39,330 nucleotides of DNA from Flavobacteriaceae bacterium (lineage in GTDB: Bacteria; Bacteroidota; Bacteroidia; Flavobacteriales; Flavobacteriaceae): NCBI GenBank assembly GCA_013043825.1, contig JABDNM010000014.1, positions 1 to 39,330 of the forward strand, in the 5' to 3' direction. The notes below the pieces were generated by a model, which saw only the letters and a program-made list of their open reading frames with translations, searched no databases and was not told the DNA's origin. The translations under genes and the position numbers were made by a program. Shown piece by piece: positions 1 through 39,184 of this stretch; position 1 is the stretch's first letter, and each line of letters opens with the position of its first letter.

Positions 1-3000
1 TCTCCCCTTAACTATATGACCCCGGTGGAAGGATCGCAGGTGTGTGATAATGGAAACGATCTTCCCAATGGTGAGGAAAAGGATGAGATCCTACTAGACG
101 ATGTACTACTGCGTGTCTTCAACCTGGACCGATTGAATTTTAATAACGACCCCCAGCAGGGAGGAGATGGATTCTTCGATTTTTATCCTGGAATCACCGT
201 CGACCAGCAAAATGGGCGAATTATATTCACCAGCGTTGAACCATTTGGGGAATTCCTCTTCAATCGATTGAATGGGTCGGTTTGTGCAGAGGATGTCGTG
301 GGTGTTCCAAACTATAATGTGCCTAACTCCTACAACGCCAACCAGGCCAAATACGTCTACCGAAGTATGTATCGTTCAACCAAGACGATCGCCGAGCAGG
401 AGGATAGCGATAAGAATAAATTTCAACTAAGAGGTTCGTACAAGTCCACGGGATCTGATGGAATCCCGATTGGTGCTTTTAATATCCCTCAGGGATCGGT
501 GACCGTAACTGCAGGAGGAAGAGTTCTGGTCGAGGGAGTAGATTATACCGTTAACTACCAGTTGGGCCGGGTACAGATCCTAGATCCAGCTCTGCAAAAT
601 TCAAATACACCCATCAATATCACTACGGAAAACAACACGCTCTTCGGTCAGCAGACAAGACGATTCACCGGTTTTGATGTCCAACATCGATTCAACGATG
701 AATTACAAATAGGAGGTACTTTCCTAAATCTGAACGAACGACCACTTACCCAGAAGTCGGCATTTCAGAATGAACCCATCAACAACACCATGTTTGGTTT
801 CAACGCCAATTATTCAACCGAAGTTCCCTTCCTTACACGTCTGGTGAACAAATTGCCGAACATCGATACAGATGTTGCCTCGAATGTTTCTCTGCGGGGA
901 GAATTTGCCTACTTACTGCCGGGAGCACCAAAAGTCTCCAATTTCGACGGTAAGGTTACGGCATATGTTGATGACTTTGAAGCGGCTCAAACCGCTGTCG
1001 ATATAAGTTCACCGCTCACCTGGGCACTTTCAAGTACGCCCATTGGTTTTGGTGGTGAATTGGGCAACGATAATCTGGCCTACAATTACAATCGGGCCAA
1101 ATTGAATTGGTATTCCATCGATCCTGTGTTTTATAGCAGTCAGAGACCCAGTGGCATCGATGACAGCGATCTTTCATCTCCATTTACTCGTCGCGTGTTC
1201 CGGGATGAGATCTTTCCAGATCAGGACATCATACAGGGGCAGACCCAGGCATTGTTTACACTGGATCTTGCTTATTATCCGGATATGCGGGGAGAGTATA
1301 ACTACAACCCGGCTGCGGCAGGTTCTAATAACCTACCCAATCCGGAAGCTCGATTTGCAGGAATATCTCGACAGTTGACCACCACGGATTTCGAACGTTC
1401 CAATGTGGAATACATTCAATTCTGGTTGATGGATCCCTTTATCTATCCTGAAAACGCCAACAATGCCGGGGGAAAGATCACCTTCAATTTGGGGAATATT
1501 TCAGAAGATGTTCTGAAGGACGGAAGAAAACAATACGAGAACGGTCTGCCGGAAGACGGTGGAACCGATAATACCATTGGTACGGTTTGGGGGAAGGTCC
1601 CTACCAACCAGTCGCTGGTGTATACTTTTAACACCGTAGGCGAAGAAAGAACCAACCAGGACATCGGGTTTGATGGATTGAGCGATGCGCAGGAATCAGA
1701 CTATATATTAAGTTCAGGTGATATTCCCGATTCCTTTGCAGGCTTACCGGATCCTGCCGGGGATAACTACCAATACTTCCTGCAGGCGGAGGGAAATATC
1801 CTGCAACGTTATTTGCAATACAACGGTACACAGGGGAATAACCCGGAGCAGGTTTCGAATAACAATCGGGGAAATAACGCCCAACCAGATGTAGAAGATA
1901 TTAACCGTGACAACACCATGAACACCGTGGATAGTTATTTCGAATATGAGATCGAACTTTTTCCCGGCATGGATCAGGAGAGTGGAAAGTACGTCACCGA
2001 CGTGAAGGAGATCTCGGTCACAACCCAGGACAATCAAGATATCCCGGTTCGATGGGTTCAATTTAGAATACCTTTGAGCGAATATGATGATGCGATCAAT
2101 GGGATATCCGACTTCAGATCGATACGTTTCATGCGAATGTTCCTTTCTGAATTTGATCAACCGGTGGTACTTCGTATGGGAACACTTGAATTATTCCGAG
2201 GAGATTACCGGCGTTATACCGAATCATTGGATGTCACCGGAGAGGACAACGAGATGGATGAGACCACCTTTGAGAACGAAGCAGTTGGGATCATTCAGAA
2301 TTCCAACTACGTGATTCCGCCTGGCGTTTTCCGAGAAGAACTCAACAATAACAACAACCTAATTAGACAAGACGAACAGTCTCTTGCCTTACGGGTTTGT
2401 GGATTGGAACCGGACGATGCCCGAGCTGTTTACAAGAATTTCAATGTGGACATGCGGCAGTACAAGAACCTGGAGATGTTTATCCATGCTGAATCGCTCG
2501 AGAACCAAACCTCTTTGTCCGACGGGCAAATGGCTGCGTTCATTCGACTGGGAACCGATTTAAATACAGCGTTTTACGAAATTGAGATCCCCTTGGTGGT
2601 CTCGCCCAACCTACCAAATCCATCCGATGCTGATGCCGAAACGGTATGGCCGGCGGAAAACCGTTTGGATCTCCCATTGGAAGCCCTTCAGCAATTGAAA
2701 ACACTCGCATTGGGTAGCAGGGAAGGACTTAGTGATCCAGATCCCATAACCGGAATTACGTACGCCGAATCCGGAACGATCAATGCCAATGAAAACTACC
2801 GTTTTGGAATCAAAGGAAATCCCAGCTTTGGGAACGTTCGGGTGATCATGATCGGTCTGAGAAATAAGGCTAATACTTCCATTTGTGGTGAGGGCTGGTT
2901 CAACGAACTACGCCTTTCCGAATTGGACAACAAAGGAGGCTGGGCTGCCGTGGCCAATCTGGATGCCAACCTGGCCGATTTTGCTAACGTAAGCGCAACC

Positions 3001-5682
3001 GGAAGGAAAAGTACTATTGGTTTTGGGTCTATCGAACAAGGGCCGAACCAGAGAAGCCTTGAAGACGCCGAATTGTACGATGTGGTGACCAATTTTAATC
3101 TGGGACAGATGCTTCCATCAAAATGGGGGATCCAATTACCGTTCAATTACGGAATTGGCGAAGAGACCATCACTCCCAAATACGATCCCGAATTTCAAGA
3201 TATAGAGTTGCAGCAGCGACTGGATAATGCCCCTGATGATGCAGAACGTAACCGAATTAAGAGCCAGTCGGTAAATTACACAAAAAGGCAGAGTGTGAAT
3301 TTCATTGGTGTTCGAAAAGATCGCACCGGAGATGCGAAACCTATGCCTTACGATATTGAGAATTTCACCTTTTCCTATTCATACAATCAAATTGACCACA
3401 ACGATTTTGAGATCGAAGAATCGCTGGATCAAAATGTACGTCTGGGCGGAACTTATAATTATAATTTTCCGCAGAAACCCATCGAACCATTTGCAAAAAG
3501 CGATTCTCTATTCAATGGAAAATATTGGCAATTCTTAAAGGATTTGAACTTCAACCTCTTGCCCACAAACATCTCGGTGAGTTCGAATATAATAAGACAA
3601 TACAACGAGCAAAAATTTCGGGAGTTGGATCTGTTGGAAGGGAATATTGGAATCCCAAGGCTGTTTCAACGCAATTTCCTATTCGATTGGCAGTATACGC
3701 TTAACTATAATTTGACTAAATCGCTACGATTTAATTTCAACGCGGCCAATAATCGCATCATAAACAATTATGTGGATGAGGATGGGATCGTAGACAATGG
3801 CGTAGGAATTTGGGATGGATTCTGGGATGTAGGTGACCCCAACCAACATTTCCAATCCTTGCAGGTGAATTACGACATTCCCACACAGAAATTTCCTTTC
3901 CTGAAGTGGATTCGAGCTACCTACTCCTACCAGGGAGATTACCAATGGCAGGATGGAAGTGATTTATTCAATAGTATAGAGATAGAAAGACCCAACGGGG
4001 AGGTGCAAACTTTCAATCTTGGGAATTCCATTCAGAATGCAAGCACGCATCGAATCAATTCTACCCTAGACATGACGAATTTCTATCGCTATGTGGGTCT
4101 TACCAAGATCACACAGAGCAAGCGAAGAAGTAATCAAGGAGAAGGAGGTGCCGGTGGAAATCAAAAAGGAGGCGATGGAAGTAAAGGAGGTGACGGTAAA
4201 AAAGGTGCGGATGGCAATGAGAGCAAGAACAATAAAACCGAAACCGCGGAACGTGGTGGCGCCCTTGGGGCAGGTAACCGTCGAGGGCAAGGTGGAGCAG
4301 CCGGACAATCTTCCAGTTCGCTTAGCGGGGGAGACAAAGCGTTAAACTCCCTCATTGGACTGGCCACGATGGTGAAAAAGATTCAATTCAATTACCAGGA
4401 GAACAACGGTATCTTCTTACCGGGATATACACCTTCCATTGGTTTTGCAGGATCACTTAAACCAACTACCGGGTTTGTATTTGGAAGTCAGGCCGAGATA
4501 CGCGAATTAGCAGCTCGCAAAGGATGGCTTACATTATATCCTGAGTTCAACGAGCAATATACCGAGGTGGAAAGCAAACAGCTGGATGCCCAGGTAAACA
4601 TTGAATTGATCCCGGACTTGAAGATCGATTTGAATGGAAGTAGGATCTATTCTGAAAACTATGCCGAAAACTATATCGTAGAAGATGACCTGTATCGTTC
4701 TTTAACCCCGAATACTTTTGGGAATTTCAATATCTCCACCGTATTGATAAAAACGGCCTTCCAGACCAGTGACGAGAATAGCAGTGCCGCCTTCAATGAT
4801 TTTAGAGGAAATCGACTTATTGTAGCCAACCGTTTGGCCGAGGATTTCTACGGGACTACAGGCTTTCCCAGAGATGAGGAAGGTTTCCCTATTGGCTTCG
4901 GAAAAGCTAGTCAGAATGTATTGTTACCAGCCTTTCTTTCAGCATACAAAGGAAGCAGCGCTTCCACCGAAAAAACAGGGATCCTTCGGGATTTCCCGCT
5001 GCCCAATTGGGACATCAAGTACACTGGGCTAATGAATATTCCATGGTTTAAGAAAAACTTCAAACGATTCTCCTTGCAGCATGGTTATCGCTCGTCGTAT
5101 ACGGTGAACCAGTTTCAGACCAACTTGGACTTTGATCGAAATGACCCAACTGCCATGGATCAGGCGGGGAACTTTAAAAGTGAGATCTTCTTGAGCAATG
5201 TGAACCTTACGGAACAATTCTCGCCCCTGATGCGAGTAGATTTCGAGATGCTCAATTCGGTGAAGATATTGGCCGAATACCGAAAGGACCGTGCTCTCTC
5301 GTTGAGTTTCGCCAACAATCTCATGACAGAGATTCAGGGGAACGAGATCATTCTGGGGCTTGGATATCGAGTGAAAGACCTAAAAATTAGTACCAATTTT
5401 GGCGGAAAAAAGAAAGTCATCACCAGTGATTTGAACCTGAAGCTCGATGTATCCAGAAGAGACAATAAAACCATAATTCGGTACCTAGATCTGAACAATA
5501 ACCAGACAACTGCGGGGCAGACCATTTATGGGTTACAGTTCACAGCAGACTACGCCTTGAGCAAGAACCTAACCGCTTTATTCTATTACGATCATACTTT
5601 CTCGGAATATGCAATTTCAACCGCGTTCCCGCAAACTACCATTAGAAGTGGCTTTACCTTGAGGTATAACTTCGGAAATTAA
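1..5682 (+). CDS. sprA: T9SS outer-membrane translocon SprA, 5'-partial
   Basis: SprA is the very large outer-membrane beta-barrel that forms the protein-conducting translocon of the type IX secretion system. The frame is open from base 1 (five codons precede the first ATG at 16), so the gene starts upstream. About 1893 codons are visible. The Flavobacterium johnsoniae protein is about 2400 residues, so roughly 500 N-terminal residues are missing (family knowledge). The visible part is rich in Asn/Tyr/Phe with alternating hydrophobic strands and ends in a barrel-like strand with a final aromatic (RSGFTLRYNFGN). A Gly/Lys/Ser-rich, low-complexity stretch interrupts the barrel at 4132-4338. gcvH follows 28 bases after the stop, the order commonly seen in Flavobacteriia. 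I see no frameshift or internal stop. The family call is very likely; I made no alignment. Confidence 0.95.
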   Translation, partial: SPLNYMTPVEGSQVCDNGNDLPNGEEKDEILLDDVLLRVFNLDRLNFNNDPQQGGDGFFDFYPGITVDQQNGRIIFTSVEPFGEFLFNRLNGSVCAEDVVGVPNYNVPNSYNANQAKYVYRSMYRSTKTIAEQEDSDKNKFQLRGSYKSTGSDGIPIGAFNIPQGSVTVTAGGRVLVEGVDYTVNYQLGRVQILDPALQNSNTPINITTENNTLFGQQTRRFTGFDVQHRFNDELQIGGTFLNLNERPLTQKSAFQNEPINNTMFGFNANYSTEVPFLTRLVNKLPNIDTDVASNVSLRGEFAYLLPGAPKVSNFDGKVTAYVDDFEAAQTAVDISSPLTWALSSTPIGFGGELGNDNLAYNYNRAKLNWYSIDPVFYSSQRPSGIDDSDLSSPFTRRVFRDEIFPDQDIIQGQTQALFTLDLAYYPDMRGEYNYNPAAAGSNNLPNPEARFAGISRQLTTTDFERSNVEYIQFWLMDPFIYPENANNAGGKITFNLGNISEDVLKDGRKQYENGLPEDGGTDNTIGTVWGKVPTNQSLVYTFNTVGEERTNQDIGFDGLSDAQESDYILSSGDIPDSFAGLPDPAGDNYQYFLQAEGNILQRYLQYNGTQGNNPEQVSNNNRGNNAQPDVEDINRDNTMNTVDSYFEYEIELFPGMDQESGKYVTDVKEISVTTQDNQDIPVRWVQFRIPLSEYDDAINGISDFRSIRFMRMFLSEFDQPVVLRMGTLELFRGDYRRYTESLDVTGEDNEMDETTFENEAVGIIQNSNYVIPPGVFREELNNNNNLIRQDEQSLALRVCGLEPDDARAVYKNFNVDMRQYKNLEMFIHAESLENQTSLSDGQMAAFIRLGTDLNTAFYEIEIPLVVSPNLPNPSDADAETVWPAENRLDLPLEALQQLKTLALGSREGLSDPDPITGITYAESGTINANENYRFGIKGNPSFGNVRVIMIGLRNKANTSICGEGWFNELRLSELDNKGGWAAVANLDANLADFANVSATGRKSTIGFGSIEQGPNQRSLEDAELYDVVTNFNLGQMLPSKWGIQLPFNYGIGEETITPKYDPEFQDIELQQRLDNAPDDAERNRIKSQSVNYTKRQSVNFIGVRKDRTGDAKPMPYDIENFTFSYSYNQIDHNDFEIEESLDQNVRLGGTYNYNFPQKPIEPFAKSDSLFNGKYWQFLKDLNFNLLPTNISVSSNIIRQYNEQKFRELDLLEGNIGIPRLFQRNFLFDWQYTLNYNLTKSLRFNFNAANNRIINNYVDEDGIVDNGVGIWDGFWDVGDPNQHFQSLQVNYDIPTQKFPFLKWIRATYSYQGDYQWQDGSDLFNSIEIERPNGEVQTFNLGNSIQNASTHRINSTLDMTNFYRYVGLTKITQSKRRSNQGEGGAGGNQKGGDGSKGGDGKKGADGNESKNNKTETAERGGALGAGNRRGQGGAAGQSSSSLSGGDKALNSLIGLATMVKKIQFNYQENNGIFLPGYTPSIGFAGSLKPTTGFVFGSQAEIRELAARKGWLTLYPEFNEQYTEVESKQLDAQVNIELIPDLKIDLNGSRIYSENYAENYIVEDDLYRSLTPNTFGNFNISTVLIKTAFQTSDENSSAAFNDFRGNRLIVANRLAEDFYGTTGFPRDEEGFPIGFGKASQNVLLPAFLSAYKGSSASTEKTGILRDFPLPNWDIKYTGLMNIPWFKKNFKRFSLQHGYRSSYTVNQFQTNLDFDRNDPTAMDQAGNFKSEIFLSNVNLTEQFSPLMRVDFEMLNSVKILAEYRKDRALSLSFANNLMTEIQGNEIILGLGYRVKDLKISTNFGGKKKVITSDLNLKLDVSRRDNKTIIRYLDLNNNQTTAGQTIYGLQFTADYALSKNLTALFYYDHTFSEYAISTAFPQTTIRSGFTLRYNFGN
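4132..4338 (+). other. Gly/Lys/Ser-rich low-complexity segment inside sprA
   Basis: About 69 codons of sprA encode a hydrophilic stretch with GG, GDG and KKG repeats, then RGGALGAGNRRGQGG and a Ser run. It lies between two barrel-like regions, so it is probably a disordered loop. Reading frame is kept on both sides. Whether it faces the periplasm or the outside cannot be told from sequence alone. Confidence 0.7.
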
Positions 5683-29018: not shown

Positions 29019-31130
29019 TTACTTCATGAGTTCCAGGGCTTTCTCAGTTTCTGTCACCGGTAATTTACAAGTGTTATTTACACACACATAGATGTATGTT
29101 TTTCCTGGAAGGAACCGGCCTTTGAGTAACGGACTTTCACCAGGTGATGTGCTTCCCGCGATAAGTTTGCCCGGTAAATAGATCTTGTTGAATTTGGTGA
29201 TCATCTCATCGGCCTCAGGTCCAACGACCACCAGCTCGTAGTAGGGCGATCTGTAATTGGAAAGCAAATCCAGCCAATTCGAAAAACCGCCGGGATATTG
29301 CTCCAGTTCACCTTGTACGTTTTTCAGCATTTGATGAGCGATGTCGGCAAAGTTTCGTTCATCGAAATGATGGGAGAGCACAAATAAGTTCTTGGCCATC
29401 ATCGAATTGGATGAAGGAATAACATTGTCCCGATAGTCGATGGTTCTCGTTACAATTTCTGCATCTTCGTCTGAAGTAAAGTAGAACATTCCTTTTTCCG
29501 TATCGTGAAAATGTTCCAGTGTGTAATCTGCCATGGATTTTGCCTTGTCGAGCCATTCTTCGTTCAGTGTAACTTCGTAGAGACCGATATAAGCGTCGAT
29601 CACTGAGGCATAATCTTCAAGGTAACCGTTGATGTTGCTCTTTCCATTCTTATAATTGTGCCATAACCTGCCATCTCCTAGCAATTGATTTTCAGCAATA
29701 AAACGGGCATTTTTCAATGCAATCTTTAGGTAAGCTTCTGTCCCAAAGACCTTGTAAGCATCTACATATCCTTTCAGCATGAGTCCGTTCCAGGAGGTTA
29801 ATGTCTTGTCGTCCAGTCGGGGTTTGGGTCGCTTATTTCTGAATTCCATCAACGCTCTTTTCCAGGCTTGTTTCTTTTTTTGAAGGACTTCCTGGCTCAA
29901 CGCATGTGCCTTGATTATTTCAGCATCACTTTTGATTCGAATGAGAACATACTTTCCTTCTTCCTCCCACTTTCCGAAGTCATTTACGTTGTAATAGTCC
30001 TGAAACAGGGCAAAATCATCCTTGATAACACTTCGTAGTTCCTCTTCGGTATAGATATAATAGGTTCCTTCTTCTAACGCTCCGGTCTCGGTTTTACTGT
30101 CCGCATCCAGGGAAGAATAAAAAGCTCCCGCGTCATGGGTAAGTTCACGAGACACAAATTCCAGCGTTTCCTCTACGACTTCCTTATAGAGAGTCTTACC
30201 TGTGATGGCAAAAGCTTCACTGTATAAGCTCGCAAGTTGTCCGTTGTCGTACAGCATTTTCTCAAAGTGGGGAACATGCCATTTGGAATCGGTGCTGTAA
30301 CGGGCAAATCCACCACCAATCTGGTCGTAAACACCTCCAAACGCCATTTTGTCCAGGGTAAGGAGTACATGTTCCATCAACTGTTCATCATTTTCTTCCT
30401 GTGCCGTTCGCATCCAATAAGCTACGTTTCTAGGCATCATAAATTTGGGTGCGCCTCTCGTACCTCCATTGATCACATCGAGATTTCGTTTCAAGGAATC
30501 GATTACGGGTTGAATTTCGAACTTGGTATAATCTATTTCATCGGTGTTCAATTCAATGAGGTCGAGACTTTTAATCCCCTGTTCCAGGCGAGTGGCATAA
30601 TCGACCAATTTTTGTGGTTCTTCTTCATACAAAGTGCTTATTTGGTCAATGGCCTGGATCCAGTCTTCTTTCTGGAAATAGGTGCCCCCCCAGACCGGCC
30701 TTCCATCGGGTAAGGTGATTACGTTCAGAGGCCATCCCGCTCTTCCCGTCATTAGTTGTACCGCACTGATATATACCTGGTCCACATCGGGTCGCTCCTC
30801 ACGATCCACTTTCACCGAAATAAATTTATCATTCATCACAGCTGCAACAGTCGAATCTTCAAAGCTCTCTCGCTCCATCACATGACACCAGTGGCATGCC
30901 GCATAACCAATGCTCACGATCATTAGTTTCTTTTGATCCTTGGCTTCTTGTAAGGTCTTTGCATTCCATGGTTTCCAGTTCACAGGATTGTGTGCGTGTT
31001 GCAAGAGATACGGACTGGTCTCATGGATCAAATCATTCGTAAACTTGTGGTCTTTCACGGTTTCGTTTTTGGATGAGGTACAGGAGGCGATGGCAAATGC
31101 CAGGGTTATTCCGATAAAAAGTGACTTCAT
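29019..31130 (-). CDS. DUF255/YyaL-type thioredoxin-domain lipoprotein
   Basis: A 703-residue protein of the YyaL/spermatogenesis-associated-20 type. The ATG at 31130 gives a lipoprotein signal (LAFAIASC, C17), so it is probably anchored to a membrane facing the periplasm. An ATG seven codons upstream is open, but the -7 element lies across it. The N-terminal domain has a thioredoxin-type motif CHWC (79-82) in [17 protein letters not shown], then [22 protein letters not shown]. The rest is an (alpha/alpha) barrel like N-acylglucosamine epimerase-type folds ([20 protein letters not shown]). The C-terminus carries two cysteines, CVNNTC. The family is conserved from bacteria to mammals, but its reaction is not established. 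Confidence 0.9.
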
Positions 31131-31148
31131 AGTAGGGATCATGCAGAA

Positions 31149-31173
31149 CAAAAATACGCCTTTGATTACTCAA
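31149..31173 (-). promoter_or_regulatory. Possible promoter of the YyaL-type gene
   Basis: On the minus strand TATTTTTG (31149-31156) is an exact -7 match, 19 bases from the start at 31130. A TTG at 31171-31173 is only 14 bases upstream, which is short. Confidence 0.45.
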
Positions 31174-31475: not shown

Positions 31476-32408
31476 CTAAGCATTGATCGCCTCCACGGAG
31501 TTTACCTTTCCGTGCATCATCTCGCGTAACATGGTCTCTATTCCATTTTTCAAAGTAACTGTAGACGAAGGGCAACCGCTACAGGCACCTTGAAGAATTA
31601 CACGAACTGTCTTGGTTTCTTCATTGAAGGAATCGAAGGCAATATTGCCACCATCGCTTGCCACAGCAGGTTTTACATACTCTTCCAGGATGGAGACGAT
31701 CTCCTTCTCGGTTGCGCTGAGTTCGGTTTTTGCTTTCTGTTGGTTTTCTTCGGAAGAATTTACTTTGGAAGTACCATCATTATTGCTGCCAGTATCGCTA
31801 TTCAGGATCGAGTCGTCTAAAATAGGTTTGCCTTTTTCAATATAAGATCGTATGAACTCTCTTAATTCCATCGAAATTTCCTGCCATTCGGCCATATTAT
31901 ACTTTGAAATAGAGACATAATTAGAGCTAATGAATACTTCTTTCACAAATGGGAACCCAAATAACTCCCTGGCCAAGGGCGCATGTTCGGTATCGTCTAT
32001 GGATTTGAACTCAAAAATGCCGTCGGCAAGGGGCTTATTGGCTACAAACTTCATAGCAGCAGGGTTTGGTGTGCTCTCGGCGTAGACTGTCACAGGGATC
32101 TTAGAGTTTTCCGTTATTTCTAACACGGGAGCCCCACTATCTAGATATTCGCTTATCGACTGGGCCACTTCCTCCTGTACATCCTGCCATGAAACGATAT
32201 TGAATTTTTCAACGGCGATGAAGTTCTGTGAGATATACACTGTTTTCACAAAGGGTAAATGGAACAATTGACGGGCAATTGGACTGGGAGCCGCTTCCTC
32301 TATGTTCTTGAATTCGAAGCTATTAGCCTGTGTAAGGAAGGTATTAGCAACAAATTTTATAATATTCTCGTTACTAGTAGGTTGGATGGAGATGTTAAAT
32401 TCGGACAT
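31476..32408 (-). CDS. Nfu/NifU-type Fe-S scaffold with duplicated N-terminal domain
   Basis: A 310-residue cytoplasmic Fe-S carrier that would pass clusters to target proteins. Two Nfu N-terminal domains lie in tandem: one begins SIQPTSNENIIKFVANTFL, the second VYAESTPNPAAMKFVANK, and each ends in an LPFVK/FPFVK-V-x-IS segment. After a Ser/Asn-rich linker comes the C-terminal NifU domain (VKPAVASDGGNIAFDSF) with the cluster-binding CxxC in LQGACSGCPSSTV. ATG 32408 is preferred over ATG 32417 because the promoter predicts transcription starting near 32419, which would leave almost no leader for the upstream start. Confidence 0.92.
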   Translation of the reverse strand: MSEFNISIQPTSNENIIKFVANTFLTQANSFEFKNIEEAAPSPIARQLFHLPFVKTVYISQNFIAVEKFNIVSWQDVQEEVAQSISEYLDSGAPVLEITENSKIPVTVYAESTPNPAAMKFVANKPLADGIFEFKSIDDTEHAPLARELFGFPFVKEVFISSNYVSISKYNMAEWQEISMELREFIRSYIEKGKPILDDSILNSDTGSNNDGTSKVNSSEENQQKAKTELSATEKEIVSILEEYVKPAVASDGGNIAFDSFNEETKTVRVILQGACSGCPSSTVTLKNGIETMLREMMHGKVNSVEAINA

Positions 32409-32424
32409 TCCGCTCATTTTTTTG

Positions 32425-32483: not shown

Positions 32484-35400
32484 ATGAGAAAATTATTGCT
32501 GCCTGTTCTGCTGTGCTTCGCCTATGCCAGTTTCTCGCAGTCCATTAATGTCAATGATCCTCTCGACCCAGAAAATGCCCTATCTGCCGAGGATCTGATC
32601 AATCAGGTATTGATTGGCGGTGACTGCGTGGAGGTAAACATGACTTTTTTGCAAGAGAATTGTGACGGGGTTGGAAATCTCTTAGAACGAAGTTGGGGAT
32701 ATTTTGACGCAACCGGAACCAATTTTCCGTTTCAGGAAGGAATTATATTATCTACTGGTTATGGAGTAAGTGCTGAAGGTCCCAACGATGTGAGCGGATC
32801 TTCCGATTCAGGTCTCTGCGGTGGAGTAACATGGCCGGGTGATGATGATCTCAAGACCATACTCGATATTCAGAGTGGAGATAACGTGCAAACTAATAAC
32901 GCCACGGTCTTTCAGTTTACTTTCGTTCCCATAATTTCCGATATTTCCTTCGATTTTATATTTGCTTCTGAAGAATATGAAAACGACTTCGAATGTGATG
33001 CACAATTTAGAGATGGATTTGCTTTTCTACTGAGAGGTCCCGGAATTCCGAATGACTCGGGAACTGCCTTTGGAGGAACCAATATCGCGGCTGTTCCAGG
33101 TTCTCTAAATGTACCTGTAAGCACACTTTCTATCCATGCAGATACCTTCATGTGTGGCAGCGAAATCCCAGGCGTCAACTTCTTTCCTGAGTTTTATGTT
33201 AGTAATTGGGCCGGGAACAACCAGAACGAGATACAATTTGATGGGTATACTACCTCGCTGGCTGCAACAGCTAGTTTAACTCCTGGGGAGACCTATGAAT
33301 TAAAAATGGTGATCGCAGATCGCGGAGATTCTTCCTTCGATTCTGCGGTATTCTTTAGAGCTGGGTCCTTTAATATAGGAAGTGTGGACCTGGGTGTAGA
33401 CCTAACCATTGCTAACGGAAATGCACGTTGCCAAGGGGAAGATTATGAAATAATGCCCGACATTAGTGTTCCTCCGGGAACCACCTACGAATGGCAGTTT
33501 GAAAGTCCACTGGGCTCAGGGACATTTATTCCTTTCGTACCTGCCGAAACCGGACCAACACTTGTGGTTAACACAACCGGAAACTACAAACTAATTGTTG
33601 ATTTTAATGGACTCTGTACTTCGGAAGGAGAGATCTTCATCGAATTTGATATGCCCTTTGCCATCAACAACGCTCCAGATCCCTTGATCGTTTGTGACAG
33701 TGACAATGATGGTTTTGCTGAATTCGACTTAACTCAAGCCGATAATGACATTACCATGGGTGACCCGAACTTAACAGTGAGCTACCACGGGACACTCCTC
33801 GATGCTCAGAACGCGGCACTTCCACTTACTAGCCCCTATACCAATGATGATATACATAGTGATAGCGTTTGGGCACGCGTTGAAAGTAATAATAGCAGTT
33901 GCGTGGAATTTGCTGAATTGTTCCTAATAGTTCGAAATTCTCCCATTGCTGTCGAACCTGAAGCGCCACTGAGAGCTTGCGACGATTCCACCCCCGATGG
34001 TTTCACTTTTTTCGATCTCACGGTTGTTGAGCCTGAGGTTTTGGGCGGTATGGATCCTACCGAGTTTGACATTTACTATTATGTATTGCAGAGTGATGCG
34101 GTAACTGCGGGTAACAATGCTTTGACGGCCCCGGATTATTCACAGAGCATTGCCAATCCTACGAATTTTTTAAATTCTTCGAATCCCCAGGAGATCTATA
34201 TTTTGGTGGTGGGTAACAACACTTCTACTTCTCCTCCCAATCCCAATGGTGCCGAGGGCTGTTATGATATAGTTCCACTTACCTTGATCGTTGATCCGTT
34301 GCCTGAGGATTTGGGTCCATTTGAGATGGCCTTGTGTGATGATGAGCTCAATGGTTCCACTCGTGTGGATGAGATCTCGACTTTTGATCTCACCACTCAG
34401 AACGTGGCTGTTACCGGTGGTGATGCTACCTTGACAGTTTTGTGGTTTGAGACGGTGGCCGATGAGATGGCCAATAACCCGATTGCGGACCCTACGATGT
34501 ATCAGAATACCTCGACCCCTCAGACGATCATTGGTCGTGTTACCTCGGAGTTTGATTGCAGTATTACCGTTACGATGACCCTTACAGTGCTTCCCAACCC
34601 GACTCCTAATGAGAATCCTACCCCCCTGGAGCTTTGTGACGATGATGATGATGGTATTGTGGGTGGTTTTGATCTCACCAGTAAGGATGGGGAGATCATT
34701 GGTGGCGAGGCAGATGTTTCGGTGTTGTACTATGAGACTTTGGCTGCTGCCGAGGCTGGCACACCGGGCACCGAGATTGTGAGTCCCTATACCAATATCA
34801 CTCCCAACAGTCAGATCGTCTATGCGCGAGTTACCCGGGATGTACCCCCTGGGGTTTTACCCTGTTATACCATTGTGGAGTTGGAGTTGGTTGTAGTGGC
34901 CTTACCGGATATGCCTACTTCCGATTTCATTGATCCTATGATCGTTTGTGATGAGGATGGGGATGGGCTTTCTGTTTTTGATCTTACCCAGAACGATCCT
35001 TATGTATTGGGGACGCAGGATCCGGCAGATTTTGTATTGCCGATCACTTATTATGAGACTGAGGCCGATGCTATTGCCGGGACCAATGCCATTGATCCTG
35101 CCAATGCTTTTATCAGTGCTGGTCAGAGTATTTGGGTACGTTTGGAGAGTAGTGTTACGGGCTGTTTGCGGATCACACCATTTGAGATCGAGGTAGGGAC
35201 CTTCCCTGCTATTGGCACGGGTGATGATCTGTTCTTGTGTGATGATGAGGTAGGGGGCAGTACTCCCTTTGATGGTTTGTCGACCTTTGATCTTACGGTC
35301 AACACTCCACTTATCAATTTAGGCAACAGCACCCTTGAGGTTCGTTATTATAAGGATGCTGCCGATCAGGCTGCGGGTATTGCGATTGCGGATCCTACGG

Positions 35401-38141
35401 CTTATCAGAACATTTTCACTCCCCAGCAGGAGATCTTTGTTTCGGTTTTCAATGGAGAGGGATGTTCGGCTCCGACGAGTTTTTTCATCAATGTGGATCC
35501 CAACCCGGTGGTAGTATCGCCTACTCCGCTGGTTGTTTGTGATGATGACAACGATGGTTTTTATTCCTTCTTTGATCTTACGAGCAAGGATGGGGAGATC
35601 ATCGGAGGGGAGACCAATGTAGATGTTCTTTATTTTGAGACGGCCCTGTTGGCCGATCTGGGCAATCCCGGGGATGCTTTGGTGAGTCCTTATTCGAACA
35701 TCATTGCTTTTAACCAGACGATCTATGCTCGGGTTACGCGTAATATTTCGGGGCAGTTACCGTGTTATACGGTGGTTTCTATGGATTTGGTTGTGGAGTT
35801 ATTACCGGATGCTCCTACGGCAGATTTTATTGATCCTATGGAGCTTTGTGATGATGACGGGGATGGATTTGCCATTTTCGATCTCACGCTCAACGATCCT
35901 TTTGTATTGGGGACCCAGGATCCGGCAGATTTTCTACCCATTACCTATTATGAGAGCGAGGCCGATGCCTTGGCTGCGACCAATGCTATTGCCACCCCGG
36001 ATGCTTATATGAACACCGCTACGCCCAGTCAGATGATCTGGGTACGTTTGGAGCATGCTACCACGGGTTGTTTTAGGGTTACTCCCTTTGAGATCGTGGT
36101 GAGTCCTTTGCCGGTTATTGGTGTAGGTCCTTTTGACCAGGTTTTATGTGATGATGAGTTAGGTGGCAGTAGTTCCAACGATGGGATTTCGACCTTTGAT
36201 CTGAGCCAGAACAACGATGCGATCACCCTGGGTGATCCTACCCTGTCTGTGTTCTATTACCAGACCCTGGATGATCAGAACAACAATAATCCTATCGCCA
36301 ATCCTACCTCCTATCAGAACATTGCCAATCCACAGGATGTTTTTGTGAGTGTTTTCACGATGTCTGATTGTGAGGTTCGCACCAATGTAACGCTTCGGGT
36401 ACTTCCCAATCCTACTCCCACCGCTCCTACGGCCCTGGAGGTTTGTGACCAGGTGGATTCAAGAGATGGGATCTCCCAGTTTGATCTTACCAGCAAGGAT
36501 GTGGAGATCATCGGAGGAGAGGCCGATGTAAGTGTGAGCTACTATGAGAGTTTACAGGCTGCCATCGATGGTATTGCCGGCACCGAGCTTACGAGTCCTT
36601 ATACCAACACGGTACCCAACAACCAGGTGGTCTATGCGCGCTTAACGCGTGATGTACCCCCCGGGGAGCTTCCGTGTTTTGGTATTGTTGAGTTGGAGCT
36701 TATAGTCCATCCACTGGCCGATGACACGGCCGATATCAGTGATGAGATCGCTTGTCAGGTTCCCTTTTTAGGTACCGAGACCATTATTTTGGACGATAAG
36801 GATCCGGAGGTATTAAACGGTCAGGATCCTACCTTGTTCGATGTACAGTATTACGAGAGTGCTGCCGATGCTCAGGCGATGGTAGGTGCTTTGGCCTCGG
36901 GCATTCCTTATATCTACGATACGACAGAGCGCACCATTTATGTTGGGATCCTCAACACCCAGACGGGTTGTTATGTTCCCTACACCCAGAATATCAATGA
37001 ATTGAGTTTCATTTTAGTGGTTAAGCAAGGGGCTACGGCCACCGAGCCGGCCTTGCCTTATACTATTTGTGATAATTACGAGCAGAACGATGGTCTGGGC
37101 CAGTTCACCCTAAAGCGTGATGCGGGCAATCCCACCGAGTTGGATGATCAGGCCGATGCGCTACAGGCGGAGATACTAGGGGGTCAGGACCCCAATCAAT
37201 TTATCATCACCTTCCATGAGACCCTGGAGGCTGCCGAGGCGGGCACCAATGCCTTGCCTAACATCTACCTCAATGTGATCAATCCCCAGGTGATCTATGC
37301 TCGGGTGACCAACCAGGTTGATCCCAACGATGATCGGGCTTGTTATGATATTGTAGAGGTGATCTTGGAGGTAGAATCTTTACCTTTTGTGACCCTGGAA
37401 GAGCAGTACCGTCTTTGTGTGGATAGCTCCGGCAATCCTATCGAGGAGGAGGAAGGGGAGGTATCCCCACCGCTTATCGACACGGGCCTTGATGAGAGCC
37501 TCTATGTTTTTGTATGGCGTTATGAGGGACAGATACTACCCAATGAGACGGGTGGATCGATCGTCGCGTTGCAGGGCGGGGTCTATGAGGTTACTGTCAC
37601 ACGTATCGAGACGGGCTGTCAGACCACTGCCAGCACCACGGTGGTTTTATCGGGACCTCCGGAGGTCTTCGACGCGGTGGTAACCAGCGGTGCTTTTGAC
37701 TCCAGTCATACCATCGAGGCTACGGCCATGGGAATAGGAGATTACCTCTTCCAGCTGGACGACGGTCCCTTCCAGAGTGAGGGCAGCTTCACGGGTGTGG
37801 AGCCTGGCAATCACCTGGTGACCATCAAGGATGCCAACGGATGTGGTAGTGTTACCATCGAACTAGGGGTGATCGATTACCCCCGTGTGGTAACGCCCAA
37901 CCAGGACGGATTCCACGATACCTGGAACATCACAGGAATTGCCAATGGAGACCCAACAGCGAAGATCTACATCTTCGATCGACACGGCAAACTACTCAAG
38001 CAATTGAGTCCGCTAGGACCTGGCTGGGATGGAACCTATAATGGTAATCCACTTCCGTCCAGCGATTACTGGTTTAGAGTGGAATACAAAGAAGATGAAA
38101 CAACCAAAGAATTCAGAGGACACTTTACCTTGAAGCGATAA
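32484..38141 (+). CDS. Giant secreted T9SS type B protein with choice-of-anchor L domain and ~100-residue repeats
   Basis: An 1885-residue surface or secreted protein. Order: a signal peptide (residues 1-19, LLPVLLCFAYASFSQ); a choice-of-anchor L-like domain (about 25-305; FIFASEEYENDFECDAQFRDGFAFLL); a variable Ig-like stretch to about 395; at least twelve repeats of about 100 residues (about 400-1632), each opening with a Cys/Asp-rich turn and FDLT, with a Tyr-rich middle and V-x-x-LP end; Ig-like or SprB-like parts; and a type B sorting domain from residue 1802 (VVTPNQDGFHDTWNITG ... FRGHFTLKR). Type B signals direct export through SprA-type T9SS and are often linked to PorP/SprF-like partners; none adjoins. 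Many repeats hold DxDxDG turns likely to bind calcium. Codon use shifts strongly within the repeats. Probable adhesin; ligand unknown. Confidence 0.92.
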   Translation: MRKLLLPVLLCFAYASFSQSINVNDPLDPENALSAEDLINQVLIGGDCVEVNMTFLQENCDGVGNLLERSWGYFDATGTNFPFQEGIILSTGYGVSAEGPNDVSGSSDSGLCGGVTWPGDDDLKTILDIQSGDNVQTNNATVFQFTFVPIISDISFDFIFASEEYENDFECDAQFRDGFAFLLRGPGIPNDSGTAFGGTNIAAVPGSLNVPVSTLSIHADTFMCGSEIPGVNFFPEFYVSNWAGNNQNEIQFDGYTTSLAATASLTPGETYELKMVIADRGDSSFDSAVFFRAGSFNIGSVDLGVDLTIANGNARCQGEDYEIMPDISVPPGTTYEWQFESPLGSGTFIPFVPAETGPTLVVNTTGNYKLIVDFNGLCTSEGEIFIEFDMPFAINNAPDPLIVCDSDNDGFAEFDLTQADNDITMGDPNLTVSYHGTLLDAQNAALPLTSPYTNDDIHSDSVWARVESNNSSCVEFAELFLIVRNSPIAVEPEAPLRACDDSTPDGFTFFDLTVVEPEVLGGMDPTEFDIYYYVLQSDAVTAGNNALTAPDYSQSIANPTNFLNSSNPQEIYILVVGNNTSTSPPNPNGAEGCYDIVPLTLIVDPLPEDLGPFEMALCDDELNGSTRVDEISTFDLTTQNVAVTGGDATLTVLWFETVADEMANNPIADPTMYQNTSTPQTIIGRVTSEFDCSITVTMTLTVLPNPTPNENPTPLELCDDDDDGIVGGFDLTSKDGEIIGGEADVSVLYYETLAAAEAGTPGTEIVSPYTNITPNSQIVYARVTRDVPPGVLPCYTIVELELVVVALPDMPTSDFIDPMIVCDEDGDGLSVFDLTQNDPYVLGTQDPADFVLPITYYETEADAIAGTNAIDPANAFISAGQSIWVRLESSVTGCLRITPFEIEVGTFPAIGTGDDLFLCDDEVGGSTPFDGLSTFDLTVNTPLINLGNSTLEVRYYKDAADQAAGIAIADPTAYQNIFTPQQEIFVSVFNGEGCSAPTSFFINVDPNPVVVSPTPLVVCDDDNDGFYSFFDLTSKDGEIIGGETNVDVLYFETALLADLGNPGDALVSPYSNIIAFNQTIYARVTRNISGQLPCYTVVSMDLVVELLPDAPTADFIDPMELCDDDGDGFAIFDLTLNDPFVLGTQDPADFLPITYYESEADALAATNAIATPDAYMNTATPSQMIWVRLEHATTGCFRVTPFEIVVSPLPVIGVGPFDQVLCDDELGGSSSNDGISTFDLSQNNDAITLGDPTLSVFYYQTLDDQNNNNPIANPTSYQNIANPQDVFVSVFTMSDCEVRTNVTLRVLPNPTPTAPTALEVCDQVDSRDGISQFDLTSKDVEIIGGEADVSVSYYESLQAAIDGIAGTELTSPYTNTVPNNQVVYARLTRDVPPGELPCFGIVELELIVHPLADDTADISDEIACQVPFLGTETIILDDKDPEVLNGQDPTLFDVQYYESAADAQAMVGALASGIPYIYDTTERTIYVGILNTQTGCYVPYTQNINELSFILVVKQGATATEPALPYTICDNYEQNDGLGQFTLKRDAGNPTELDDQADALQAEILGGQDPNQFIITFHETLEAAEAGTNALPNIYLNVINPQVIYARVTNQVDPNDDRACYDIVEVILEVESLPFVTLEEQYRLCVDSSGNPIEEEEGEVSPPLIDTGLDESLYVFVWRYEGQILPNETGGSIVALQGGVYEVTVTRIETGCQTTASTTVVLSGPPEVFDAVVTSGAFDSSHTIEATAMGIGDYLFQLDDGPFQSEGSFTGVEPGNHLVTIKDANGCGSVTIELGVIDYPRVVTPNQDGFHDTWNITGIANGDPTAKIYIFDRHGKLLKQLSPLGPGWDGTYNGNPLPSSDYWFRVEYKEDETTKEFRGHFTLKR
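34305..35207 (+). repeat. A-B-C super-repeat, copy 1
   Basis: Residues 608-908 (301 aa, 903 bp). Three ~100-residue domains in order: type A (CDDELNGSTR, FDLT), type B (CDDDDDGI, FDLTSKDGEIIGGE) and type C (FIDPMIVCDEDGDG, GTQDPADF). Confidence 0.85.
35208..36113 (+). repeat. A-B-C super-repeat, copy 2
   Basis: Residues 909-1210 (302 aa, 906 bp). Same order: A (CDDEVGGSTP), B (CDDDNDGF, FDLTSKDGEIIGGE), C (FIDPMELCDDDGDG, GTQDPADF). Similarity to copy 1 is visible at base level, strongest in the C domains. Confidence 0.85.
36114..37031 (+). repeat. A-B-C super-repeat, copy 3 (C domain diverged)
   Basis: Residues 1211-1516 (306 aa, 918 bp). A (CDDELGGSSS) and B (FDLTSKDVEIIGGEADVSV) are close to the earlier copies. 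The C-like domain is degenerate: its Cys-Asp turn is replaced by ACQVPFLGTE, although a GQDPTLFDVQYYES segment remains. Confidence 0.75.
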
Positions 38142-38425: not shown

Positions 38426-39184
38426 ATGAAAAAATTCTTATTTATTTCAGCGCTCGCATTATTTGTATTCAATTCAATTAATGCGCAGGATTATGCTCTA
38501 ACCGATTCTGATCAATACGATCTTTCGGAGATGAGCTTGACCGATATTGAAAAACTGACACTAGATCGTGAAAACGAAACAGCAGTACTTCAGGAAACAA
38601 ACGACATTGCATTTGGTATAATTGGAGGTCTTGTGTGCTCAACTATCTACGGTGATGAAGCAGACAGTTTTGACAACAGAATAAGTTTTCACCTCGGGAT
38701 TATGCTAACCATGTTGATGTCGGAGAACTTTGCGCTACATGGTGAATTGCTATACGCCGGCATGGGCTCAGACTATGAGGACACGACTGGTGATGTAGAA
38801 TTATTCGACACCCGTCGTGGAGGCGGTGGAGGAGAAACTTTTTCCGGCACTTATAAACTGGATTATCTGCTATTGCTCATTGTTGCACAATATTATATAG
38901 CTGAAGGTCTTAGCCTAGAAGCAGGTCCACAGTTTGGATTATTACTGTCGGCAAAAGATGAATTTACATTTCTTGGAGAAACTTCGGAAGAAGATGTAAA
39001 AGACCAGACCAAGGGATTTGATTTTGGCGTATCGGGAGGGGTAGGTTACGAGTTTGCTATGGGACTTTATCTAAAGATCCGGTATTACCTTGGATTGCTT
39101 GAAATAAACGATTTTCAATTTCCTGGAAATGAAAGTTGGAAAAATTCCGGATTATTTGCTTCAGCAGGATGGTTTTTTAACTAA
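38426..39184 (+). CDS. Small outer-membrane beta-barrel (porin-family) protein
   Basis: A 252-residue protein with a signal peptide (MKKFLFISALALFVFNSINAQ). A short acidic segment (about residues 22-60) is followed by a beta-barrel of the outer-membrane protein type common in Bacteroidota (OmpA-like N-terminal barrel or OMP_b-brl group): IAFGIIGGLVCSTIYGD, HLGIMLTMLMSENFALHGELLYAG, LSLEAGPQFGLLLSA and the final strand GLFASAGWFFN, which ends in a typical aromatic/Asn terminus. A poly-Gly loop (RRGGGGGE) lies in the middle. Transport specificity cannot be inferred. A terminator follows directly. Confidence 0.85.
   Translation: MKKFLFISALALFVFNSINAQDYALTDSDQYDLSEMSLTDIEKLTLDRENETAVLQETNDIAFGIIGGLVCSTIYGDEADSFDNRISFHLGIMLTMLMSENFALHGELLYAGMGSDYEDTTGDVELFDTRRGGGGGETFSGTYKLDYLLLLIVAQYYIAEGLSLEAGPQFGLLLSAKDEFTFLGETSEEDVKDQTKGFDFGVSGGVGYEFAMGLYLKIRYYLGLLEINDFQFPGNESWKNSGLFASAGWFFN

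Follow-up and report, generated by a model that had tools for sequence, protein, structure and literature searches.

These data suggest, with a probability that we place at roughly 0.7, that the giant gene described here codes for a surface protein that depends on the type IX secretion system (T9SS) for export and has an old A-B-C stalk, and that its stalk and tail undergo concerted evolution beneath unrelated heads. The gene lies in a 39,330-nucleotide stretch of a Flavobacteriaceae MAG (GenBank assembly GCA_013043825.1, contig JABDNM010000014.1), which was analyzed as a whole and is referred to below as the window. An initial annotation of this DNA had reported a three-domain super-repeat in the gene; the observation holds overall and is partly confirmed, and its interpretation is partly supported. 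Beyond that annotation, the array appears to be part of a stalk common to several loci. Sequence comparison is able to demonstrate the periodicity of the array, its age, the shared stalk ends, and the conservation of the loci.

Architecture and period of the giant gene

The predicted protein begins with a hydrophobic, signal-peptide-like N terminus (judged by eye only) and qualifies as a choice-of-anchor L protein, its head scoring above the NF038133 cut-off (Table 1). The TIGR04131 tail at its extreme C terminus identifies it as a T9SS type B substrate. An adjacent downstream PorP/SprF gene is common, though not universal, for such substrates; the beta-barrel gene found downstream here had no match to the PorP/SprF family model TIGR03519 at E ≤ 1. 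The giant gene therefore looks like an “orphan” type B substrate, and because orphan substrates exist, its type B membership stands despite the missing neighbor. Pfam and NCBIfam returned nothing on the repeats at E ≤ 1, and the SprB repeat (PF13573) had no match in the protein at the same threshold; four relatives searched against these databases gave hits above cut-off on heads and tails and sub-cut-off rows only elsewhere. Residues 1568–1720 (window 37185–37643) drew a weak phmmer match to a phage neck-whiskers protein (PDB 9occ, E 0.0013). The T9SS translocon gene sprA/sov (TIGR04189, 2148 bits) is found at window 1–5682, on the same contig as this T9SS substrate and at its opposite end.

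Table 1. Features of the giant gene and its neighborhood (window coordinates)
Feature	Position	Strand	Remarks
Giant gene, 1885 aa	32484..38141	+	choice-of-anchor L head, 12 repeat domains, T9SS type B tail
Head, choice_anch_L domain, residues 39–296	32598..33371	+	NF038133, 153.8 bits against a cut-off of 27
Domain N, own type	33657..33941	+	
Domain M, own type	33942..34298	+	identity to sister gene jumps within M
Shared stalk and tail	33978..38141	+	probably common to giant gene and folE-linked sister; only both ends seen in MAG
Cassette 1, A1-B1-C1, 903 bp	34299..35201	+	
Cassette 2, A2-B2-C2, 909 bp	35202..36110	+	
Unit 3, A3-B3-D, 921 bp	36111..37031	+	D (residues 1412–1516) is not a C copy
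Domain Z	37032..37376	+	final domain of A-B-D-Z end block
T9SS type B sorting tail, residues 1797–1885	37872..38138	+	TIGR04131, 115 bits against a cut-off of 35; CHU_C PF13585, 48.8 bits
Downstream gene, outer-membrane beta-barrel protein	38426..39184	+	PF13568, 64.4 bits
Nfu/NifU gene, upstream neighbor	31476..32417	-	synteny anchor with A. galaxeae contig C10
DUF255 gene, beyond Nfu/NifU gene	29019–31151		

The repeat domains follow the order N-M-[A-B-C]-[A-B-C]-[A-B-D]-Z ahead of the type B tail, with domain Cys residues at 404, 499, 618, 718, 822, 919, 1019, 1122, 1222, 1321, 1424, and 1529. The A-domain Cys codons (residues 618, 919, and 1222) were recovered where the initial annotation had placed them, at 34335, 35238, and 36147, spaced 903 and 909 bp; its periods of 903, 906, and 918 bp, however, become 903, 909, and 921 bp in the Cys register. 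When residues 604–1516 are compared with themselves, the four top protein lags are 301, 303, 300, and 302 residues (19–16% identity), followed by 12% at 95 residues, and the top DNA lags are 909, 903, 906, and 900 bp (37–34%), followed by 33% at 1218 bp. The contention that this is a super-repeat and not a simple tandem array, for which a diagonal at about 905 bp was expected, is upheld because the lag peaks fall at 900–909 bp; the diagonal is present in both DNA and protein self-comparison.

Identity between domains follows the same pattern. Domains at the same position share 40–51% (A), 52–71% (B), and 68% (C1-C2), as against 29–45% for different-letter pairs among A, B, C1, and C2 and 31–43% for adjacent domains from A1 to B3 (26–36% when divided by the longer domain). 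Mean identity over the nine domains is 47.4% within and 29.9% between positions, or 52.6 versus 31.3% for the eight domains without D. The ABC register is the single best split of the nine domains into triplets (6 of 1680 labeled arrangements, all of them its own relabelings). Equal-position domains are more alike than others, as in a higher-order, titin-like super-repeat. A cruder test, in which all 12 domains were permuted and the best lag was taken, counts against the period in this gene (P = 0.084).

Three A-B-C units had been proposed from residue 608 onward, and the first two stand. The domain in the third C position is 33–36% identical to C1 and C2, no closer than to M or A2, and it clusters away from C, with the same position of four relatives (tree support 100/98); the third unit is thus A-B-D. 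A true third A-B-C copy is ruled out by identity and tree together, D being a separate conserved type.

Recurrence and age of the period

The three-domain period recurs in Flavobacteriaceae. A profile search returned 1353 domains in 144 reading frames from 113 loci. Among the 100 arrays of at least six domains, the best lag was 3 in 53, 1 in 16, 2 in 12, 6 in 8, and 4 in 5, with lags 9 and 5 best in two arrays each and 7 and 8 in one each; removal of near-duplicates left 69 arrays, 35 of them with a best lag of 3. In the de-duplicated arrays of at least eight domains, lags were then compared with the average of the two lags on either side. Lag 3 was higher than its neighbors, lags 2 and 4, in 53 of 63 (binomial 3e-8, the arrays not being fully independent), and lag 6 was higher than lags 5 and 7 in 46 of 57; the control lags 2 and 4 were higher than their own neighbors in 19/63 and 22/63. 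The family-wide period is based on this sign test and the label test, and not on per-array permutation over all lags, which is weak (P < 0.05 in 10 of 100 arrays; 0.084 for the window). The cassettes of the window gene itself served as query for the arrays, a choice that may favor three-domain arrays. The type models, too, started from the window before being iterated, so type strings in distant genera are less certain than the lag counts.

Unit size varies across the family, at one, two, three, or six domains. Six-domain units are found in loci L042, L043, L048, and L011 and a two-domain unit in a Kordia gene (L084). In the Ulvibacter locus L057, a three-domain cassette is repeated at 846 bp with 269 nt identical, which reads as a probable recent in-register event. 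A Flavobacteriaceae-like array also occurs in a record named as Cyclobacteriaceae (L054), through transfer or because the contig was binned wrongly.

A tree was built from 59 domains of five arrays. The A domains fall into one group and the C domains into another, and B needs two changes. A1, A2, and A3 cluster by position across the genus, as do most B and C positions, and this clustering places the duplications before the genus. Recent expansion in the window lineage is not supported, on the same grounds. Of the expansion by recombination initially envisaged, the three-domain unit of duplication survives, supported by the identities, the tree, the label test, and the family lag counts; the recent expansion in this gene does not.

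Two ABC cassettes followed by A-B-D-Z are present in all four genus genes that could be typed, namely the window gene, L009 (= L038), L010 (= L041), and L039 (cut before N), and likewise in L045. Several genes are nearer to the window gene than L045 (L040, L011, and L042–L044); among these, L040 has two ABC and A-B-D-Z with four extra domains in front, and L011 and L042 have a further block. Three ABC cassettes are found in L047 and in one L048 gene and a single one in the second L048 gene, and genes of Aequorivita and Ulvibacter have one, two, or three. All of these cassette counts are between species, with one genome per species.

Copy number is central to a different reading, in which near-identical neighboring domains of a Periscope-type stalk vary in number between strains and so set the projection of the head. 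Arrays of that kind do exist within the same family: L059 (15176–23233) and L104 (19987–24171) carry 13 and 8 copies, respectively, of a ~540-bp unit composed of one FDLT-type domain and a further stretch, at 97–100% DNA identity (92–94% for the first L059 copy), and ABC number ranges from 1 to 3 among genera. In the window gene, however, adjacent domains share 31–43% and cassettes are 55–63% identical in DNA, so that highly identical neighbors are not found, and the four typed genus genes do not differ in cassette number. We consider a Periscope-type stalk improbable here.

The orthology of cassette positions also implies that exchange between cassettes inside the gene has been limited. Some later in-register exchange in the window gene is hinted at by B3, which the tree places among the B1 domains (96/90, at an open fork), and by an excess of identical codons (z 3.0–3.3 for B1–B3, B2–B3, and C1–C2; 2.6 for A1–A2). 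In L009 and L010, z is at most 1.5 in all seven pairs each; A1–A3 of L039 reaches 3.0, and the excess is therefore not unique to the window.

Stalks shared between loci

Within the window's MAG (82.5% complete, 4.3% contamination), contig C225 ends inside a second family gene, located beside folE. The head of this gene has no family match and no significant similarity to the window head (best E 0.014 over 75 aa). The gene is 71% identical in DNA to window 33666–34001. Of the 60 nt before window 33978, 33 match, whereas 123 of the 124 nt between that point and the end of the contig do so. Contig C139 starts 473 nt before a stop codon, and 429 of those 473 nt (90.7%) are identical to window 37669–38141; directly after this copy lies a PorP/SprF gene (TIGR03519, 2.5e-58), encoding one of three PorP/SprF proteins in the genome (on C126, C112, and C139). 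We infer that C225 and C139 hold the two ends of one sister gene. Because the middle of the sister stalk is not assembled in the MAG, the identity of the stalk between these ends is presumed, and C225 and C139 could instead represent different genes or derive from another strain, which would count against a shared stalk.

In Aureisphaera galaxeae, a 4271-bp contig (L039, with K_83 in its title) carries nothing but stalk and tail. Two other contigs terminate in exactly its first 83 nt. One of them, C10, encodes a choice-of-anchor L head with Nfu and a DUF255 gene as neighbors, an arrangement also seen in the window; the other, C2, encodes another head, with folE and cysS as neighbors. C19 and C9 overlap the last 83 nt of L039 in the same exact way, and C9 runs on into PorP/SprF. 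Contig overlap, as distinct from read coverage, shows two A. galaxeae head loci to join one 4.27-kb stalk contig. High coverage tags on short contigs were set aside as evidence of copy number. Between the window species and A. galaxeae, the first head is 44.6% identical over 413 aa and the second 34% over 284 aa, and with this likeness and the flanking genes both loci look orthologous in the two species. A second A. galaxeae comparison (L039 with L041) found no shared stalk block for that pair (52–83% per domain).

The stalks of these loci are related differently. Stalk DNA of the window species is 66% identical to that of A. galaxeae over 100 nt at the 5′ end and 68% over 473 nt at the 3′ end (68–72% between species), with 55–76% protein identity for domains A1 to B3, whereas the stalk ends within the window genome are 99% (100 nt) and 90.7% (473 nt) identical. 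Greater likeness between loci within a genome than at the same locus between species is the mark of concerted evolution. At the two conserved loci, paralogs exceed interspecies orthologs, as probable members of a concerted multigene family, the comparison for the window MAG covering the stalk ends only.

Two or more loci were available from twelve genomes, and 14 pairs were compared. A block of 88–100% DNA identity, 2.9–5.4 kb long, lies over the stalk domains in 10 of the 12. The heads differ (14–33% identical) in 7 of these 10 block-bearing genomes, where both are comparable; M. aquimarina, with a cut array and an 88% block, has heads that share 50%, and for L. jangbogonensis and Aequorivita HC6-5 the frame lacks one of the heads. 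The other two genomes, A. galaxeae (L039 with L041) and Ulvibacter SRR3580189, show no shared stalk block for the pair compared. In the Ulvibacter AB_MB380 pair (L057 5383–10011 and L107), heads are 64% alike with no matching stalk when counted from the C terminus, a count that is out of register because the L057 frame lacks the tail. For five pairs that are well away from contig edges and in which both frames run open as far as the tail, the block ends 2–7 nt past both stops in four cases and 73 nt past in one. Long contigs of other genera hold two or more genes with stalk blocks 92–100% identical and heads unlike.

Kordia algicida has four such genes, with 96–100% identity over 3.4 kb; the heads on these like stalks are an L-type lectin, a CUB, PKD, and P-domain combination, a choice-of-anchor L domain, and one without a match. 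In strain OT-1 (L077, L082) the four giant genes form two tandem pairs, the last nine domains being 86–100% identical and the heads different; the open frame at L082 7979–13954 stops before the tail. PKD/CUB heads with or without choice-of-anchor L are found in SP247, M30B34, M. profundi, and M. mobilis. Four copies of a 5.3–5.4-kb stalk, ~100% identical, are present in Mesonia mobilis (L122–L125), all at contig edges; as the blocks of M. mobilis and SP247 end at such edges, the limit of the shared part is not visible there. In genome G003, two contigs end in the same 55 nt, one with a choice-of-anchor L head and the other a family contig that has no NCBIfam head match, and the gene of contig C3 in G001 contains the final 77 nt of contig C15; the comparisons made for G002, G005, and G008 found no shared contig ends.

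These observations bear on the simplest account, namely an ordinary old higher-order repeat that has since diverged, with no present exchange between loci and with contig-end identities that are accidents of assembly. The orthology of A1, A2, and A3 across the genus and the constant cassette number in typed genus genes are in keeping with it, and multi-domain duplication units are described for titin and nebulin in the sections of the two studies drawn on here (PMC10665226, PMC1553488). In two species, however, the same two head loci meet a shared stalk, and in other genera long contigs bear 92–100% identical stalk blocks under unlike heads. We regard this account as unlikely.

In the reading that we prefer, concerted evolution acts on a protein with three parts: a choice-of-anchor L head, a type B tail for export and anchoring, and between them a stalk that presumably projects the head and comprises 12 domains, each about 100 residues long. 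The stalk is an A-B-C higher-order repeat in which neighbors are dissimilar and copies three domains apart are alike. Recombination between loci, presumably by gene conversion, would homogenize stalk and tail, and smaller in-register exchanges may occur between cassettes within the gene. By analogy, the similar stalk and tail may let the orphan protein use the PorP/SprF shuttle of its sister locus, and the heads may diversify to bind different targets.

A broader and more tentative proposal, which we would hold as possible at somewhat less than even odds, is that Flavobacteriaceae keep banks of heads (choice-of-anchor L, L-type lectin, CUB/PKD/P-domain, and unnamed) on one homogenized stalk–tail module. 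The stalk would recombine, one shuttle would serve several loci, heads would be exchangeable between loci or strains, and the A-B-C register would enable this. Identity would be kept between proteins at the same register and not between neighbors, avoiding the misfolding risk of identical neighbors. Such a design, in which the heads vary while a recombining stalk and the secretion tail stay constant, is testable; if it is true, one shuttle could serve several adhesins, and head exchange between strains would be measurable with long reads. Shared stalks could also explain why genome assemblies from these bacteria are interrupted within giant surface genes.

Fold and comparison with known systems

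An AlphaFold2 model of A1-B1-C1-A2, built with 130 sequences, reached a pLDDT of 96.1 and a pTM of 0.77 and is confident per residue; a single-domain model reached a pLDDT of 84.8. Each modeled domain consists of strands and two short helices. Across the 130 four-domain stretches, every domain has two invariant Cys, which may form one disulfide per domain; the DxDxDG motif in the B and C domains suggests putative calcium binding.

The top solved structures for the four-domain model are fragments of GhpA (PDB 9fly and others; Foldseek 1.5e-10), a large T9SS-linked Bacteroidota protein. The VIA search gave six GhpA rows at Z 8.6–9.9 (rmsd 7–8, ~300 residues) and two more at 7.4–7.6. On this basis the stalk might be a hook or filament protein like GhpA, the Aureispira grappling-hook protein, forming a multimeric extracellular filament, and grappling hooks are exported by T9SS according to the portion of a review cited here (PMC11205867). 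The single-domain match is ordinary, however: GhpA scores Z 4.9 and 4.6, tied with many Ig domains, among listed rows of Z 4.5–5.8 that are mostly Ig domains. As the single domain matches Ig domains generally at Z < 6, we claim no kinship with GhpA. The four-domain Z values are near the range of common arrangements, and no sequence similarity was found: against solved structures, the single-domain profile had no match at E ≤ 10, and the four-domain profile gave one chance-like row (2i7r, E 0.89) and no GhpA chain. A GhpA-like filament is in our view highly improbable.

Among described systems, Periscope proteins are likewise bacterial tandem-domain stalks that project a functional head, in the passages of PMC8201768 used here. 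Neighboring Periscope domains are highly identical in that account, whereas those of the window gene share 31–43%, and near-identity is found instead between proteins. The same passages give as a rule that neighboring domains in large proteins are usually < 50% identical (PMC8201768), and the window gene obeys it.

SprB and other type B substrates with PorP/SprF shuttles resemble the family in their type B tail, in the PorP/SprF gene beside the C139 copy, and in that orphans can share a shuttle (PMC9143113, PMC12618676, as excerpted). Type B proteins are described there as anchoring via PorP-like proteins (PMC9143113), and in F. johnsoniae three orphan type B substrates use one shuttle, with crosstalk between very similar tails (PMC12618676). 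Unlike SprB, the window protein lacks PF13573, and the excerpts describe no concerted stalk for SprB-type substrates.

Shared parts are also described for the Porphyromonas gingivalis proteins RgpA, Kgp, and HagA. These T9SS surface proteins differ in their N-terminal portions but have adhesin domains that are the same both within one gene and from gene to gene; it is in these domains that contigs break, and gene conversion has been proposed (PMC5266723, in the part consulted). Those proteins have other domain families (CAD, DUF2436), and that part of the source describes no three-domain cassette of diverged types; what the window gene would share is stalk and type B tail.

For the repeat itself, a survey of multi-domain duplications used a similar distance analysis and gave examples at three, six, and seven domains, though the extract cited calls long repeats mainly eukaryotic (PMC1553488). 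The A-band super-repeats of titin have A, B, and C types in fixed order, block-duplicated, with same-position domains most alike (PMC10665226); they differ in being composed of FnIII/Ig domains in a muscle protein, and the sections cited describe no sharing between loci. Among the matches listed from the open-access literature, no paper was so named as to describe a concerted stalk with variable heads in Flavobacteriaceae. Precedents for the super-repeat by itself are good; it is a concerted stalk beneath unrelated heads at conserved loci that is less expected.
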